Assembly: GCF_003589595.1 (NCBI RefSeq)
Contig: NW_020653337.1
Location: 2,680,935 to 2,744,934, forward strand
DNA: 64,000 bases
Reading direction: 5' to 3'
From: Hyposmocoma kahamanoa
Lineage: Eukaryota; Arthropoda; Insecta; Lepidoptera; Cosmopterigidae
Numbering within the stretch: the stretch's first letter is position 1; every line of letters begins with the position of its first letter. Shown one piece after another: positions 3,765 through 49,024 of the stretch. Under the pieces are notes generated by a model. The model was given only the letters and a program-made list of their open reading frames with translations. It searched no databases and was not told where the DNA came from. The translations under genes and the position numbers were made by a program.

Positions 3765-5000
3765 ACTATCGAGAGAACGGGAGCCTTCAGCAATTATAGT
3801 CGTCACCAAATAAAAGGCCAAATTTGACAGTTAAAGAAGGCGATAGTATGTAACATTGAATGCGATCAACGAAACAATTAACAAACAATGATTAGCATAA
3901 TTGACTTTAAAAAAAACACATGAATTTTATTGAAACATTATACAATGTGACAAAACATATTTGAAGTACTGTTCGCACGAATTCCAAAATTGTTCTGAAA
4001 ACAGTTACGTCCTAATGCAATTTTTTGAAATAAGAGTGTTGATAAGCAATTAACCGAGTCATTTCGATTTCTTAGAAAAAAATTTAAAAAAATATTTGAA
4101 AAAATTATGAGCATTGTTTGAGATTGTTTGTTCTTGACATTGACAACTTGAATCTTATTGCCAGCTGAATAATTGAAAATTTATGAAATCCTTGGTTTCT
4201 TGGTAATTTAATGCATTTATGTAGTTGTTTTATCGATGAACACACTTATTTACACTAAATTCTCGTAATAAACCATTTATGAACATTATAAAATCAAAAT
4301 TAAAAGAATTGGATACAATCATCGGAATGTGGGGCAATTTTACGAAAATAATAGGAATTGCTGCAGAATTGCAAGGAATTGTGTAAATGAATTGCTTTTA
4401 ACAGAATTGCACGATTTGGCCTTTCAGGCCCCCTGAACAACAATGAACCGAAAAATAATCTAAACAATCACAAACTTTTAAAATTTTTAATCGATTTCTA
4501 TGTGTGATGTGATTAGCGATATTATATGATTAGTCCACATCCCCATTCGCGTCACGATGAAATTAATGGGCTGGCAATAAGATACAAGTTGTCAATGTCA
4601 AGAACAAACAATCTCAAACAAAGCTCATAATTTTTTCAAATATTTTTTTTTCTTTAATTTTTTCTGAGAAATCGAAATGACTCGATTAATTGCTTATCAA
4701 CACTCTTATTTAAAAAAATAGCTTTAGGACGTAACTGTTTTCAGAGCGTTTCGGGGTAACTCAAAATTGCATTCTATTTTGGAATTCGTGCGAACAGTAC
4801 TTCAAATATGTTTTGTCACATTATATAATTTTTCAATAAAATTCATGTGTTTTTTTAAAGTCAATTATGCTAATCATTGTTTGTTAATTGTTTCGTTGAT
4901 CGCATTAAATGTTACATACTATCGCCTTCTTTACCTATCAAATTTGGCCTCTTATTTGGTGACGACTATAAAATTGTTAATTTCGTTGCTCCGGTCCTCA
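3765..5000. mobile_element. 1.2-kb foldback element with ~400-bp inverted arms
   Basis: The left arm (about 3791-4163) and the right arm (about 4569-4976) are near-perfect reverse complements over most of their length. For example, CAATTATAGTCGTCACC at 3791 is matched at the right end. Weaker similarity extends outward to about 3765 and 5000. The ~400-bp loop holds several GAATTGC repeats (4349-4420). No transposase is present, and I could not fix a target duplication. The open frames at 4767-5128 only cross the right arm. Confidence 0.75.
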
Positions 5001-6536: not shown

Positions 6537-7905
6537 TTTTTTTATTTATTTATTTATTTATATTCAGGTTACTGAGACCCATAGATACATACCTTACAGA
6601 CTAACATACATAACAATATAAAATAATTACTAATTTAACACGTATTTAGGTTGTCGGCGACGTGTGGCGCCATCTGGTGTCAGGCAACCGGCCACGGAAT
6701 CGCCGGTATAGGACACCCTTCGGCCAGAACTCCTCCTTCATGAAGGTCGACAGATGTTCGGTCGGCACTCTCACCACAAACGAATTAAAGTTCACGTAGT
6801 GGCGGGACTCCAACCGCTCGACCCTCAGGGTGTATTTGGATTTCAACCTGATGTACTCCACTATCTCCTCAGACTTCGTGGAGTAATGCAGGCGTGACAG
6901 GTACAGCAGCGTTGTCGGGATTGCCGGACGCAGCAAAAAGTTGGACCCTGTCGGTGCAGTGCCGCACAGGTTACGGCTGGTGGGCTTCCTCTTCTTCTTC
7001 TCCACCTTTGTGAAGCCGTCATCGTCGCACCGGTCCGTCTGCCTCTGTGGTTTTGCAACTTCAGAGACAGGTACACGAGGTTTTTTCATCCCCTTCGTTG
7101 ATAGCTGCCTGGCTTGTGGTTGTGGAGCAACGGGTCGCTTAACAGCTGCGACAGCGGCGTAATCACGTGGAGGGGTCAACGTGTTTACGCGTGACGTCTC
7201 CGCCGGAGCGGACAATCGAGGGGCGGGGCGCGGGGAAACGCGCTCAGCGACAGCGGTCGGTGACGCATCCGTATGGGCCGACTCAAAACTGCCGATAGAT
7301 GCATTATGTGCCCCGCGACGAGTATTCACGTTACAGGCCTCGGGTGACCTACTTACCGAAGTTGCACTACTCAGTAATACAACTTGGGCACGTAACTCAC
7401 AGATGGTGTTATCCGAAGCCTCCAATTTACATTGAACTTCGGCCAGACTTGCTTTCAGGGATGTGATGTCCTTAAGCAGCCTAGTGACATCGACATGGTC
7501 GAACGTGACAGGGGGCAGCTTGTGCAGCTCCTTTGCCACGAAAGCAGGCACGTCGTCTGGGTCGGTTTCCTTTAACATCGTTATAATGTCCTGGATACTC
7601 TTCGTTCCTCCATCCCTCCGGCGAGATGGCATCTGCTCGGCCTTGCCAAGCACACGGAAAAGCAGCGCCTTGCCACTGCAAATCTCATCTTCTTTAAAGT
7701 TTGATTTGCAGATCTGCATGATGCTGACCTCGTCCATAGTGTCGATGGCGTGTTGTATGAACGCCAGCAGTTCATTGGCTATGAGTTGTTGGGAACCCAT
7801 AGTCAATTACGCGCAGCGGTCATTACCGCGCGGATCGCGAATTAATATAATTCTTACTGTGTGAGCACGTCCGAATCTGAGCGTGCATCGCACCGGACTG
7901 AATGG
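6537..7905 (-). mobile_element. ORF1-only LINE-type element, near full length
   Basis: Read on the minus strand, the unit has about 100 bp of 5' leader, a complete ORF (7806-6646), a ~110-bp 3' UTR and a (TAAA)n tail at 6537-6565. No reverse-transcriptase ORF lies between the ORF and the tail. The 3' UTR (for example GACCCATAGATACATACC at about 6580) recurs at 48340-48372 after a truncated version of the same ORF. The ORF-to-tail arrangement is therefore a family trait and not a one-off deletion. The 5' end abuts a SINE-a copy at 7914. Confidence 0.75.
6646..7806 (-). CDS. LINE ORF1-like nucleic-acid-binding protein (386 aa, intact)
   Basis: The product is probably the RNA-binding, particle-forming partner of a non-LTR retrotransposon. 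Visible parts: an alpha-helical N-terminus (1-95); the segment LPPVTFDHVDVTRLLKDI (97-114), leading into a leucine-rich coiled coil (to about 146); a low-complexity Ser/Pro/Ala linker (147-255); a basic patch after DDDGFTKVEKKKRKP (261-275); and a compact C-terminal domain (about 298-372, YLSRLHYSTKSEEIVEYIR onward) that looks RRM-like. No CCHC zinc knuckles are seen. The start is Met1, or Met3 two codons on. There is no stop or frameshift. The region is much richer in GC than its surroundings, as if recently inserted. A truncated relative lies at 48464-48907. The LINE-ORF1 identity rests on recalled lepidopteran families and domain order. Confidence 0.7.
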   Translation of the reverse strand: MTMGSQQLIANELLAFIQHAIDTMDEVSIMQICKSNFKEDEICSGKALLFRVLGKAEQMPSRRRDGGTKSIQDIITMLKETDPDDVPAFVAKELHKLPPVTFDHVDVTRLLKDITSLKASLAEVQCKLEASDNTICELRAQVVLLSSATSVSRSPEACNVNTRRGAHNASIGSFESAHTDASPTAVAERVSPRPAPRLSAPAETSRVNTLTPPRDYAAVAAVKRPVAPQPQARQLSTKGMKKPRVPVSEVAKPQRQTDRCDDDGFTKVEKKKRKPTSRNLCGTAPTGSNFLLRPAIPTTLLYLSRLHYSTKSEEIVEYIRLKSKYTLRVERLESRHYVNFNSFVVRVPTEHLSTFMKEEFWPKGVLYRRFRGRLPDTRWRHTSPTT

Positions 7906-9984: not shown

Positions 9985-10320
9985 AACAAGTGGTCGTTTT
10001 AAAGAAGTCGTCATTGTAAGATATCTCTAACTTAAGACGTCGACATTATAAGAATTCGTCATTATAAAAAGTCGTCCCTTTAAGAAGTCTTCCTCATAAA
10101 ACATAGTCATTATAAAAAGTCGTCATTATAAGAAATAGTCATTATAAAAAGTCGTTGTTATAAGAATCATCATTATAAAAAGTCGTCCCTGTAAAAAAAT
10201 CCACGTTATAAGAAATCGTCATTATAACGTCGTAGTCGTCGTTGTAAGAAGTGTCATTAAAACAAGTCGTCGTTGTAAGAAGTCGTCATTAAAAGAAGTC
10301 GTAATTTTAAGAACTGGTAA
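9985..10320 (+). repeat. degenerate minisatellite, unit about 16-17 bp
   Basis: About twenty imperfect units of the type AAGTCGTCATTATAAA follow one another with variants (GTCGTTGTTATAAG, GTCGTCATTAAAAGA). There is no ORF. Confidence 0.85.
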
Positions 10321-10480
10321 TTTAACATGTATTATGTGTTATTTTAGTAAGTGGTTTTTGTTTGTGAACATTAATTGTCCAAAGGATTACAGTTTTTAAC
10401 TTTATGAGTTAAGTAATAGTGTATTTTTTGATGTTAGAAAACACACAAACAATTACATTAACAAAATCATAACGTCACAG

Positions 10481-16891: not shown

Positions 16892-17870
16892 ATATAGATT
16901 TTAAGACTTTCGTGGTTATTCACTAAATGATTATCACTAGTAACAGGTTTCTTACCACGGTATAACTTCTTTTTATTTTCCCGATATTTCGGAACGGTTG
17001 CACGCTCCATGGTCACGGGTTGACTGGACGGCGGCAGATGACAGCTTTATGGGCAGACATATCTGTCTACCCTCTTGCGCTGTCGACGACTACCTTCATC
17101 GCGATTTGTTGTGGCGTTACCATTGTCACTCACTTTTTTCACACAAACCACACTTACTGTATCCACACGCGAAACTGAACTCGAGGTGTTTTTGTTTTTA
17201 TTACTGCACGCACTAAGGACCGGATTCCATGCACTGGACAGTTTAAAACCATCATCACGGTTAAATGTTTTGTACTTCGTGATCTCGATGGCTTCTCGTA
17301 CCAACCGTGGTATGTAGTGACGTTCTGTCGAGAGTACCTGGGGGCTATGCAACTCGATCCAGTGGTTAGTGTCAGTCTGTGTGAGATGTTGTGCTATAGC
17401 CGACTTCTGTGCATCATTGTTTTTTACTGCTCGGATGTGTTCCTTCATACGATCCAGGTACTCTCGACAGAACGTCACTACATACCACGGTTGGTACGAG
17501 AAGCCATCGAGATCACGAAGTACAAAACATTTAACCGTGATGATGGTTTTAAACTGTCCAGTGCATGGAATCCGGTCCATAGTGCGTGCAGTAATAAAAA
17601 CAAAAACACCTCGAGTTCAGTTTCGCGTGTGGATACAGTAAGTGTGGTTTGTGTGAAAAAAGTGAGTGACAATGGTAACGCCACAACAAATCGCGATGAA
17701 GGTAGTCGTCGACAGCGCAAGAGGGTAGACAGATATGTCTGCCCATAAAGCTGTCATCTGCCGCCGTCCAGTCAACCCGTGACCATGGAGCGTGCAACCG
17801 TTCCGAAATATCGGGAAAATAAAAAGAAGTTATACCGTGGTAAGAAACCTGTTACTAGTGATAATCATTT
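16892..17870 (-). mobile_element. Penelope-like element, 5'-truncated, with inverted arm
   Basis: The insertion is bounded by 11-bp direct repeats GTATTTGACTA (16882-16892 and 17871-17881). It has a 33-bp unpaired extension (16892-16924), an arm of 416 bp (16925-17340), a 114-bp spacer (17341-17454) and a 416-bp arm of inverted sequence (17455-17870). The arms are almost identical. The minus strand of the spacer plus left arm encodes the end of a GIY-YIG-type domain. An inverted terminal arm, a ~34-bp extension on one side and variable target duplications are known for Penelope elements. The uninterrupted target is preserved at about 16034-16060. Confidence 0.85.
17047..17460 (-). pseudogene. 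Penelope-like ORF C-terminus (GIY-YIG endonuclease remnant)
   Basis: The meaningful reading starts at about 17460: EYLDRMKEHIRAVKNN, KSAIAQH, HWIELHSPQVLSTERHY, LVREAIEITKY, FNRDDGFKLSSAWNP, then a basic tail ending RVDRYVCP. This order matches the C-terminal half of the GIY-YIG nuclease domain of Penelope-like elements. The GIY and YIG strands and the whole reverse transcriptase are missing. The open frame extends to 17580 only because it runs through the inverted arm, where the translation is meaningless. The plus-strand frames at 17317-17748 and 17075-17317 are arm images. Confidence 0.75.
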
Positions 17871-32890: not shown

Positions 32891-32895
32891 CGTGC

Positions 32896-32928
32896 CACAT
32901 AGGAGTATTTGACTCAAAAATCCGGTCA
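32896..32928 (+). repeat. Transib left TIR with RSS-like order
   Basis: The heptamer-like CACATAG is followed by an 11- to 12-bp spacer and the A-rich TCAAAAATC, which matches 7 of 9 bases of the RAG nonamer consensus ACAAAAACC. The right TIR has TCTAAAATC in the same place. Confidence 0.6.
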
Positions 32929-33168
32929 AAATGATTTATTGGTTTTTTCTTCTTTGTGATGAAATAAAACACAATAAAAATAGTTTCTAGGTACATATTT
33001 TATATTAAATACATTAAAAATATCAATACAATATAAATTATACAGAAAAAATGTTTTAGAGCTATAAGTACATGATAATACAAAAAAAACAATTACAAAT
33101 AAAAATTAACAAAGAAAAACGGCTTAAATCTAAGATACTTAGAAATAAACAATAAAAAAATCTCTATT

Positions 33169-35529
33169 TTATTCTTCGGAGCTCTCGTATTCTTCGTTTA
33201 AAATAAACATTTCCCTTGCCTCCTTTGAGAAGGACTTCGACTTATTTGCTCGTTTTTTCCTGGTACAGCTTATTCCCCTAATAAGATCAGATGTTAATAA
33301 AAGTCTATTCAACACATCTCTATTGCATTCCACCCTACTAAATTTACGAGCAAAATCTATGCGATACTTTCGCAGATGTTTATTTCTAGCCTCTGAGGCC
33401 TCCTCTGACAACTGTCCTATTGGCAAAATGGCCTGTTCAATGACTTCAGCCCCATGCATTAAGATTTTGTGAACTGTAGGTGACATGGGGTACCATCCAT
33501 TCAATTCTACATACATTTTTGCTGTAGTTTGGGCAAATACATAAAATTTTTCGTGGTTAATGTTGAATCCACTCGATAAAATTTCCAATATAGTATGAAA
33601 CCTTTTTATTAGGGATATATCGATTCCAGTGATCCGAGACGAAGTTTCTGGGTCATTAAAAAATCTTCTGGATGTATTGCCATCATTACTGTTGCCGTAA
33701 CCTACTTTTGGGATGTCGACAAGTAGCCCCATTTCTTCCCTGAAACTTTTTTGTATCCGCTCTTTTGTTTCTTTAACAACTTTCTTTTCTTCTTCAGATC
33801 GGGCTTGCCACTTTTTGGTACGAGCTTTATATGCCAAATGCAACAATTGCTCGAAAAAACGGATTCGGGCATGGAGAATCGAAAGCCCAAACTTTAAAGA
33901 TTCTTTATTTGCTTCAACCCTTTTAAGATTATTAAAATCTTTTGACGTTTGGCCACATATATAACAACGCATTGTCGAAGCCGTATCAGTCGCAGCATTG
34001 CAGACCTTACCATCTACCATTGTCAAGAGCAGGGTGTGTTTTATTTTGGTACCTTGTTTGTTTAGTTCTGTACTTTTTAAACGTGTTTTTTGAGTTTCAA
34101 TGAATGATATCTCTTCTTTGGTTATATCTTTCGTCTCATGAACAAAACGGGCTCGGATAGGTCGACAAAACCTCACTGATGAGGGTACTGGATTTTGCCA
34201 CACTGTCTTCTTTGTTTCACCGTTAATAGAGACAATCAACCTCACTGGAACTAATGAACTAAAGAATATATTTGAATCATCATTGATTGTTTCGATAAAT
34301 CTTTGTTTGAATTGTGTCTGATGAGATCCGTCACAACCCCATTTTGACACCAAAATTAAATTCTCTCTTTCATTTTCAGCCAAAGAGTCTACGACATCAC
34401 TTAAATAATCCATCAGACGCAAAGTCGTATGGTCCAATAGTGCTTGAAGATCCACTTCAAAACTGGTCTCAGTAACTTTGATGTATTTTTCATCCGGGTA
34501 ACATTCCTTTTTCGCTTTTTGGATAATTGTGTAACAAGGGTACACATCTTTCCTTTCGCCTTGGATTAGTTCCCATTGTCTTCGTGTGAAGTCATCTTCC
34601 ACGAACAACGCCAACGCTTCTTGTGGTGTGTATTTCATTGTTGCCTTATCTTTCTTGGCTGATGATATGATACTTCGAAATTTTGTAGCTCTATTCGGAG
34701 AAGCCGTGATTTCTTTCAAAACTTTGGAAGTATCGGTATTCCTGGAAGTGCCGTGACTAACACGAGCAGCGAAGGTCAACTCATCAACGGGTACCTGGTC
34801 CCGTAAATCCTTTGTTCTCCGTCGCTTGCTCCTTTCACTTAATTCTTGGAATTGTTTTTGCGGCCTTCCCGGTTTATAACACCACGTGGGCAGCTCAATT
34901 GTTGTTTTGAGCCAATCTGCGTTCTTATTTAAGAATATATGTTCTATGCTGTGAGATTCTGTCCATTTTTTCTTGAAGCTGGTTTTGAAAAACCTCAACG
35001 AACGACTTAAAACGCTCTTTTCCTCGACTGGGCAACATGTGAGCCCTACGAGCTTTTTTTCTAATAAAATAAATTTTTCTTCATTTTTTTTTCCTTTAAA
35101 CTCCTTCAATATGTCATACAGTTCCAATCTAGTAAGTTTTTTTACTTTCTCCGGAGAATCTGAGACAAGAGAAAGCAAAATTAGTGAATTTTTATATTTT
35201 GAATATTGTATACCTAAAATTTAAAACACGTGTACAAAATAAAGTTGAAAGTTGTTGAATGCTTTTATTGCTTATTTATGTAGACAAAAGTCTGAAATAT
35301 ATGCTAACATGAAAAGTTAAGGGCGACAAGACGCGACACGTGGTCAAATCTACTATGATATCTCAAATTTAGTGAAAAAAATCAGGTAGTAAAAAGATGT
35401 TTCCAATATTGACTCAGTAAATAGGAAATTCGAGTAAAGAACTATAATAATGTGTGTAATAATATAGTACATACCTCCAACTTCCATGTCTAATTGTTGT
35501 TTTTGTTGTAGTCCACTACACGAAGCCAT
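33169..35529 (-). CDS. Transib/RAG1-like transposase, two exons (about 681 aa)
   Basis: A DDE transposase that would cut and paste its own element in the nucleus. Exon 1 (35529-35475) starts with ATG and encodes 18 codons plus one base. The intron (35474-35160, GTATGT...TTGTCTCAG) is followed by exon 2 (35159-33169). The junction restores Asp and stays in frame with the long ORF. Without splicing there is no ATG until residue 181 of that ORF, because the track-style start at 35178 is TTG. Numbering from that TTG, features aligned by eye to the RAG1 core are: GRPQKQF plus a basic helix (104-127, like the GRP nonamer-binding domain); CDGSHQ with Asp283; MVDGKVCN with Asp389; CYIC (405-408); H570 and H575 in VHKILMH; and Glu593 in SEEASEARNKH. 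These are the three catalytic acids and the Cys2/His2 zinc ligands. No stop or frameshift occurs. Confidence 0.9.
35160..35474 (-). other. intron of the Transib transposase gene (315 bp)
   Basis: The donor is G|GTATGT at 35474-35469. The acceptor is a pyrimidine run TTTTGCTTTCTCTTGTCTCAG ending at 35160. Splicing joins phase-1 ends and gives an uninterrupted reading frame. A 5' intron after a short first coding exon fits an insect gene. Confidence 0.8.
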
Positions 35530-35733
35530 ATTTCACTTAGAATTTAGTGTCACAAAAGAGAGAGTCGAGAACAAAGATGTGCGATTCCGACAACGACTGA
35601 GTTTCGACTGACCAGGTAGTCAGAGGGCCGGCGCGGGCGCTGGTGGGGAGCTTCCCCTTCGATAAACGGCTTACTGGGCTACATGAAACGAGCATTATAT
35701 GTGTCATTATATTAAAATTGTGATTTTGAATTA

Positions 35734-35766
35734 TGACCGGATTTTAGAGTCTAATACTCCTATGTG
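35734..35766 (-). repeat. Transib right TIR
   Basis: This is the reverse complement of the left terminus with two changes (position 15 T to A, position 21 A to T). It is followed directly by the target duplication CGTGC at 35767-35771. Confidence 0.9.
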
Positions 35767-35895
35767 CGTGCGCAGGACAATGCGACTACGCAAGTTTGGG
35801 CAGGTGCAAGACAATCGTGTTTATTTTACCTGAATGTGGTTTGAGTACGTAAAACCGCAATAGTTCTTGGTAATTGCCATATATGTCGTCAATTG

Positions 35896-36998: not shown

Positions 36999-38248
36999 CG
37001 TGGGGTGCACTATAAGTTTCCGGAATTAATAAGAAAAAAAATACTATAAATGGTCAGAAATAAGTTTATTGTTTCACAATATTCTCCGTTAGCGTTAATG
37101 CACTTTTTCACACGAATGAATCAATTTTGGAAACATTTATGCCACTCCTCCGTGAAAATCTCTGAAACATATTTTTCATACTCTTCGACAGCCCCCTCAG
37201 GTGATGAAAATAGTTGACCGCGTAACTGGTTCTTAATTTTTGGAAATAAATAAAAGTCACAAGGTCGGGATAGTACGCGGGATGGCTCATAAGGTCAACG
37301 TTGTCCACCTTCAAAAATTCATTTGACTGTCTGGTCGTATGAGAACTGGCATTATCGTGGTGCAAGGTGATACAGCGTTTACGATTATTTTTACGGAGTT
37401 TGTCAATAACTTCCGGCAAACAAATGGTCATGTACCAATCACTATTCACGGTACAACGTTTCTTCAAATCAACAGTAGCCACGTGTCTAGTTTTATTAAA
37501 AAAAGAAACAATTGTCCGCTTAGAGGCATTTTCCACGCGCGCCACTTTGGTTGGTTTCGGCTCATCTCAAAAGACCCATACGCTCGATTGCTACTTTGTT
37601 TTGCTATCGTAACTATAAATCCATGTTTCGTCACCTGTTACTATGTTCCACACGAAATTTGACACGCCTTCTTTGAATCTGGTAAGCATGGTATTGCACC
37701 TAGTGACGCGATCCGTTTTTTGAGCCTCAGTCAAATTGTGTGGGAACCACCGAGAGCACAGCTTTTACACACCCAATTGTTTGTGTAGTATTGATTGTAT
37801 TCCACTCATGCCTATGCCTAAAGATGCCCCAATCTCATGATATGTAACATGCCTGTCTGTTTTGATCATACGGCGCACAGCATCGATATTTTTGTTGTTC
37901 ACAGCAGTGGACGGGCGACCATCAGGAAATTGAATTCTGCAAACCAGCTATAAATAGTCGTCTTTCACGGTGCTTCATCGCCAAAAGCAGTTTGAAGCCG
38001 AGCGAAGCTTCGCTGAGCTGTTAAATTACACTTAAAGTCGTAGAAAATCATACTATGAAAATTTTCACGAGTTTAATCCATGGCGATGTAGACAACCAAT
38101 TTCTAAAATCACGCCACTATGTAAAAACAAGTGACAGTCAGATGAAGCAAACAGTATTTTGCAGCCAAAGAGTTCCATTTTCAAATGTTCTAATTACTTT
38201 ATTAAGTTTTTATGTAAGTGGCCAGTTCCGGAAACTTATAGTGCGGCC
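36999..38248 (-). mobile_element. mariner element, decayed
   Basis: The inverted ends share GCACTATAAGTTTCCGGAA and are flanked by TA (36997-36998, 38249-38250). The length of about 1250 bp is normal for mariner. The transposase inside (minus strand) has several breaks, so the copy is dead. Confidence 0.85.
37077..38025 (-). pseudogene. mariner transposase (mori-like), broken
   Basis: Reading on the minus strand from about 38025: MIFYDFKCNLTAQRSFARLQ (the helix-turn-helix start), then frameshifts and stops, then QSILHKQLGV, LTEAQKTDRV, IVTGDETWIYSYDSKTK and a stop. The longest open piece (37545-37108) begins ARVENASKRTIVSFF and holds LHHDNASSHTTRQ. The first catalytic Asp (GDETW) and the second (HHDN) are kept. 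At the third, 35 residues after HHDN, the sequence is PDLVTFIYFQ instead of PDLAPxD, so that acid is gone. Family identity is clear; activity is not possible. Confidence 0.85.
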
Positions 38249-48297: not shown

Positions 48298-48905
48298 ATA
48301 ATTTATTTATTTATTTATTTATTTCAGGCAACTAGGACCCATAGATACATACCTTACAGACTAACATACATATAATATAGCAATTATATAATAAAACAAT
48401 AACAGAAATATTAAATAAATACCTTAAATACAATATAACATGATAATATACATATAACACTATTTATTTACACGTATGTAATTCGACGTGTGACGCAACG
48501 TGGGTGTCCGGTAGCCGTCCTCGGAAACGCCGGTACATGACACCCTTCGGCCAAAAGTCTTCTCTCATGAAGGTCGACAGGTGTTGAGTTGGTACTCGCA
48601 CCACAAATAAATTAAAATTCACATTGTGGCGCGACTCCAACCGCTCGACCCTCAGGTTTGCGTTGGCCTTCACTCGCATGTACTCCACAATATCCGCAGA
48701 CTTGGTGGAGTAATGAAGACGCGACACGTATAACAACGTCGTCGGTACCGCTGGACGCAATAAATGATGCGGGCCAGTCAGGGCGGTGCCACTAAGGTTT
48801 CGGCTGGTGTTCTTCTTTTTCTTTTCCACCTTCCGAAAGCCGTCCTCGTCGCACTGATCAACTCGTCTTGGTGGTACTGACGACGCAGCTCCAGATACGA
48901 GTTTC
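48298..48905 (-). mobile_element. ORF1-only LINE-type element, 5'-truncated copy
   Basis: The (TAAA)n tail at 48298-48327 and the 3' UTR with GACCCATAGATACATACC match 6537-6612. The ORF part follows and ends abruptly at 48905. Confidence 0.75.
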
Positions 48906-48907
48906 AA
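48464..48907 (-). pseudogene. LINE ORF1-like protein, C-terminal 140 residues
   Basis: It aligns with residues ~250-386 of the intact protein at 6646-7806: CDEDGFRKVEKKKK, LLRPAVPTTLLYVSRLHYST, VERLESRHNVNFNLFVVRV and EDFWPKGVMYRRFRGRLPD. The frame is open, but the N-terminal ~245 residues are lost; the Met at 48907 lies in flanking or diverged sequence. Many changes are conservative, suggesting past selection before insertion. Confidence 0.75.
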
Positions 48908-49024
48908 ATATTAAATAATATTATAATAAAAATAAAAACAATATTATAATAATATGATGAGTACAGTAAACTCTATAGATTAATACCAGGGTATTTAGTG
49001 TAAAAAGACTTGTAAAACGTACAG

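Follow-up and report, generated by a model that had tools for sequence, protein, structure and literature searches.

A Transib transposon of a young, low-copy family in Hyposmocoma kahamanoa with a probably impaired transposase

The analysed stretch of DNA (the window) comprised 64,000 nucleotides of Hyposmocoma kahamanoa contig NW_020653337.1 (assembly GCF_003589595.1, positions 2,680,935 to 2,744,934) and contained a complete Transib element of 2871 bp with a single transposase gene (Table 1). The element ends in inverted repeats of 37 nt, with two mismatches in the first 33 nt, and is flanked on both sides by the direct repeat CGTGC. The gene is encoded on the minus strand in two exons, with splicing predicted from sequence, and the resulting protein of 681 aa has zero internal stops. 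The original prediction had described the same coordinates, 33-nt ends with two mismatches, CGTGC duplication, 315-bp intron and stop-free frame, all of which were confirmed. Overall, the element can be assigned with high confidence as an autonomous-type Transib cut-and-paste DNA transposon which belongs to a young family with four complete copies and whose enzyme in the window copy is probably impaired.

Table 1. Coordinates of the Transib element and its parts in the window
Feature	Positions	Strand	Basis or remark
Target site duplication CGTGC, left copy, 5 bp	32891..32895		Sequence
Transib element, 2871 bp	32896..35766
Left terminal inverted repeat (CACATAG...), adjoining the 3' end of the gene	32896..32932	+	34/37 complementary to the right repeat
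Possible polyadenylation signal AATAAA	32935..32940	-	Sequence match only
Exon 2 including stop codon	33169..35159	-	GRP/NBD-like region, RNase H core, CxxC motif (417-420), C-terminal region
6-nt in-frame insertion and three adjoining base differences, private to the window copy	33275..33284	-	Inverted repeat of neighbouring bases; alters SDPL (residues 644-647)
Intron, GT-AG, 315 bp	35160..35474	-	Length and splice sites do not differ between the four copies
Exon 1, ATG at 35529, 55 nt	35475..35529	-	N-terminus MASCS common to P0003 (Diabrotica virgifera)
Right terminal inverted repeat, adjoining the 5' end of the gene	35730..35766	-	Recurs in other copies
Target site duplication CGTGC, right copy, 5 bp	35767..35771		Sequence

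Comparison of the predicted protein with HzTransib, the characterised active Transib of Helicoverpa zea, showed a match with an expected value of 1.8e-113 (PDB 6pqn), and the DDE triad was kept at D295, D401 and E608 as placed by alignment to HzTransib, which upheld the Transib identity proposed earlier. The Pfam RAG1 search that had been suggested for the 681-aa model gave a score below the cut-off (21.6 against 25 bits). P0001, a protein of the same family on a public contig, also stayed below the cut-off with 20.2 bits. A precomputed PF26100.1 domain is present on many of the listed homologs (P0021, P0023 and others) and was absent from the Pfam scans of the window protein and P0021; the Pfam copy scanned may be without PF26100.1. 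Apart from the transposase, stop-to-stop frames inside the ends were all of 107 aa or less and no RAG2-like gene was found among them. The element therefore has the features of the Transib superfamily, namely a RAG1-core-related DDE transposase, a 5-bp target duplication, CAC inverted ends and a single gene.

A search of the genome (728 Mb in 2727 contigs, copy counts being lower bounds) showed at least four complete copies, each on a different contig (19-26 Mb), with element lengths of 2867-2871 bp and identities of 99.27-99.65%. Each copy has its own 5-bp duplication (CGTGC, CCACG, CGTCA and CGACC) in which three to four of the five bases are G or C. The scan for ends with up to 3 mismatches produced the eight ends of the four copies, all with 0 mismatches, and one further end with 3 mismatches which belongs to a different, decayed Transib, while no match in 728 Mb was obtained with the reversed end pattern that served as control, compared to these nine. 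A chance origin of the structure was excluded, as three more copies with different duplications carry these ends and splice sites. The flanks of the four copies shared only pieces of 70-86% identity that start at a distance of at least approximately 277 bp from the junctions (E 1e-5). Flanks beside the junctions were unrelated, and duplication of a larger segment was ruled out. No short derivatives were present among the copies found, which were all full-length.

Substitutions among the four copies were all singletons, 10 in the window copy and 3, 7 and 8 in the others, which is a star-like pattern. This count omits the three base differences within the inserted stretch of the window copy, and a poly-A length difference was not a singleton. 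Equal substitution rates across the four copies were not rejected (p 0.29), with the window copy highest but not significantly so. The count of copies with the same termini, which had been proposed as a check, thus gave at least four complete copies with a divergence of 0.10-0.35% per copy. The mutation rate in Heliconius is 2.9e-9 per site per generation, and at this rate the divergence corresponds to an age of roughly 0.4-1.2 million generations. The earlier reading of a recent insertion was borne out by the high identity of the four copies, their separate duplications, the star-like variants and the lack of relatedness between their immediate flanks. There is good support for recent activity of the family, which is a young, low-copy one in a well-known superfamily.

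The heptamer-like start CACATAG was found at all eight ends of the four copies, in keeping with the CAC of a recombination signal sequence (RSS) heptamer. Located 11-12 bp inward, an A-rich block resembling a nonamer matched at 7/9 positions on the left and 6/9 on the right, which is weak against chance; a 12/23-RSS-like layout was considered for the ends at a distance of 11 bp, and no claim is made as controls reached as much in 2-3% and 9-12% of cases. The left end had zero variants among the four copies across the first 57 nt, and the 34/37 match between ends was present in each copy without variation between copies. The three end mismatches are common to all four copies and are hence a family feature rather than decay. 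No change is apparent in the ends of the window copy, and a functional relative could mobilise them.

By analogy with HzTransib and RAG, a transposase dimer would nick the DNA at the CAC ends, hairpins would be made on the flanking DNA with release of the element, and the element ends would be inserted into new DNA at points 5 bp apart. PMC6941560 describes cut-and-paste transposition through hairpins on the flanks for HzTransib. For the family in this genome, one source that is now missing or altered in the assembly may have spread in a short burst, after which the copies including the one in the window would have drifted without selection on the transposase.

The window copy has seven missense changes that are private among the four copies, in addition to the 6-nt in-frame insertion. 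The insertion creates an inverted repeat with the bases next to it and alters the near-invariant, C-terminal SDPL motif; it appears to resemble the product of a template switch in a near-palindrome. Homologs with a residue at the respective position have Y at residue 572 in 115 of 117, G at residue 158 in 117 of 119 and P at residue 644 in 111 of 117, and all three are replaced in the window copy. Four of the seven private missense residues were absent from all 120 homologs used, compared to 20 of 146 changes in six control lineages (p 0.012), where the fraction expected to be absent under random missense change is 0.477. This replaced a first comparison of 5/7 with 20/146 (p 0.0013), which had counted the inserted residues 644 and 645 and omitted 179 and 466. 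F179 had been polarised as the ancestral state with P0001 and outgroups; this was ruled out, as V179 is present in all three other genomic copies, and F179 thus occurs in the window copy alone among the four. Among the remaining three copies, the frame of one is interrupted by a stop codon within the CxxC motif, at position 420, and the other two frames are open and have one and four missense changes. The four copies together showed 16 non-synonymous or nonsense to 7 synonymous changes at a neutral expectation of 0.726 (p 0.82), and these coding changes appear to fit neutral drift. Approximately nine random point mutations leave the frame stop-free about 70% of the time, frameshifts not counted. 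Given this and the neutral-looking changes, the open frame shows youth and says little about function. Judged from these changes, the enzyme of the window copy is probably impaired.

Several points weigh against this judgement. Three of the seven private missense residues (158, 179 and 466) are seen in at least one of the 120 homologs, 179 in 24 of them, and could be tolerable. With only 23 changes to draw on, the neutrality test is of low power; the homolog set consists of the best 120 matches only, and the genome copy counts are lower bounds. In addition, the window protein is not an outlier at columns conserved to 90% or more, with 3 departures in 200; among 121 aligned proteins, 96 have more, 9 others have as many and 15 have fewer. 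These few departures, together with the open spliced frame, the intact triad and ends and the exact target duplication, would favour a fully active window copy that is among the present sources of the family. That reading is unlikely in view of the private missense changes and insertion, the replacement of strongly conserved residues, the highest substitution count of the four copies (though not significantly) and the small weight of an open frame. The near-identical ends and clean frame had been taken as signs of recent insertion and perhaps of a working enzyme; recency held, while the working enzyme was weakened by the private changes.

A domesticated, immobile RAG1-like host gene would also retain an open reading frame and a conserved core, and is very improbable for an element with four dispersed copies, separate 5-bp duplications and conserved inverted ends, with a stop codon in one copy and coding changes that look neutral. 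A RAG-like (RAGL/ProtoRAG) transposon with RAG1L and RAG2L would account for the fold-level matches to RAG1 and amphioxus RAG1L but can be practically dismissed, as no frame beside the transposase exceeds 107 aa and the HzTransib match is far better than that to RAG1L (E 4.7e-10).

As a young Transib family, the four copies give a clean picture with complete copies, unchanged ends and neutral-looking coding changes, and show that activity can hardly be judged from an open transposase frame when a copy is recent. It is possible, though rather doubtful, that the family, and not the window copy in particular, is still mobile. In that case a lepidopteran would have been invaded by Transib only very recently, and a second natural Transib from this order would be available to experiment.

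The same genome contained further Transib sequences. A second family (L023:3001-5685), to which the ninth end of the scan belongs, has an element of 2685 bp with target site duplication GATCG, a broken frame and ends that begin with CACAGTG, the canonical RSS heptamer. Four other relatives (L005-L008) had 1, 13, 0 and 12 stops in the matched pieces, and the one at L007:702-2622, of 54-67% identity, has two overlapping stop-free frames with apparently one frameshift. No other Transib pieces were found in the rest of the window, with no protein match better than E 3 and no DNA match at E 1e-3. Other features of the window were an inverted repeat at 16925-17870 with 417-nt arms and a 112-nt spacer, reported as 100% complementary although the arms were not exactly equal in a strict string check; nested inverted repeats at 3794-4971 (91-97%, approximately 1.2 kb) resembling a foldback element; a DDE_3 (mariner-like) transposase remnant at 37111-37566 below the Pfam cut-off; and a degenerate tandem repeat of a 16-nt unit at 9999-10337. 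A lepidopteran retroelement was represented by related open frames at 6649-7806 and 48467-48910. Among the 120 listed of 301 relatives of the first frame, the named ones were Lepidoptera, the best being from Hyposmocoma kahamanoa (77%).

A total of 548 of 7991 scored candidates passed E 0.001 as homologs of the transposase, and the best 120 of the 548 were listed and used. Named relatives among these 120 were from beetles, moths, butterflies, a bee and a cockroach. A search of viral and prokaryote contigs for relatives with DNA context confirmed none. The closest among the 120 was P0001 (98% identical), encoded on a contig of 2182 bases with the source code lgn, presumably Logan. From residue 19 onward, P0001 carries the state shown by the majority of the four copies, and it is without the private changes of the window copy, which indicates that relatives without these changes exist. 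Compared to P0001, the copy L002 differs only at its private residue 284 and L003 and the window copy only at private sites, L004 being outside this comparison. P0001 starts inside the intron frame and would thus derive from unspliced or genomic DNA, and it may represent several copies collapsed in assembly. The Transib-type transposase LOC126883234 (P0003) of Diabrotica virgifera has a similar length, the same first five residues and 70% identity, but belongs to a different family in a beetle host. P0003 is also 87% identical over 509 residues to the Transib protein P0049 of the butterfly Parnassius apollo, a level that suggests horizontal transfer, and PMC9435367 already proposes such transfer of Transibs on a massive scale.

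Structural alignments with the RAG1 core and amphioxus RAG1L (ProtoRAG) showed 15-18% identity, and the element does not have the RAG1L and RAG2L pair of that system. A GC-rich 5-bp target duplication, which the original prediction gave as a Transib trait, is stated for RAG in PMC11844651, and loss of the RAG2-binding alpha11-alpha12 region and the CTT2 tail are given for Transib Subgroup II in PMC9435367. With HzTransib (PDB 6pqn and 6pqx) the identity was 39% in structural alignment. The window protein has approximately 190 N-terminal residues, including a GRP motif resembling the nonamer-binding domain (NBD), ahead of the part that aligns with HzTransib from HzTransib residue 21. The activity of HzTransib and the GRP/NBD region of Transibs are already on record (PMC8355894 and PMC9435367). 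The family could serve work on RAG origin as a Transib carrying an NBD-like domain and, if still mobile, would differ from HzTransib as solved in the presence of this N-terminal domain, whose role in end binding could then be tested in a transposon.
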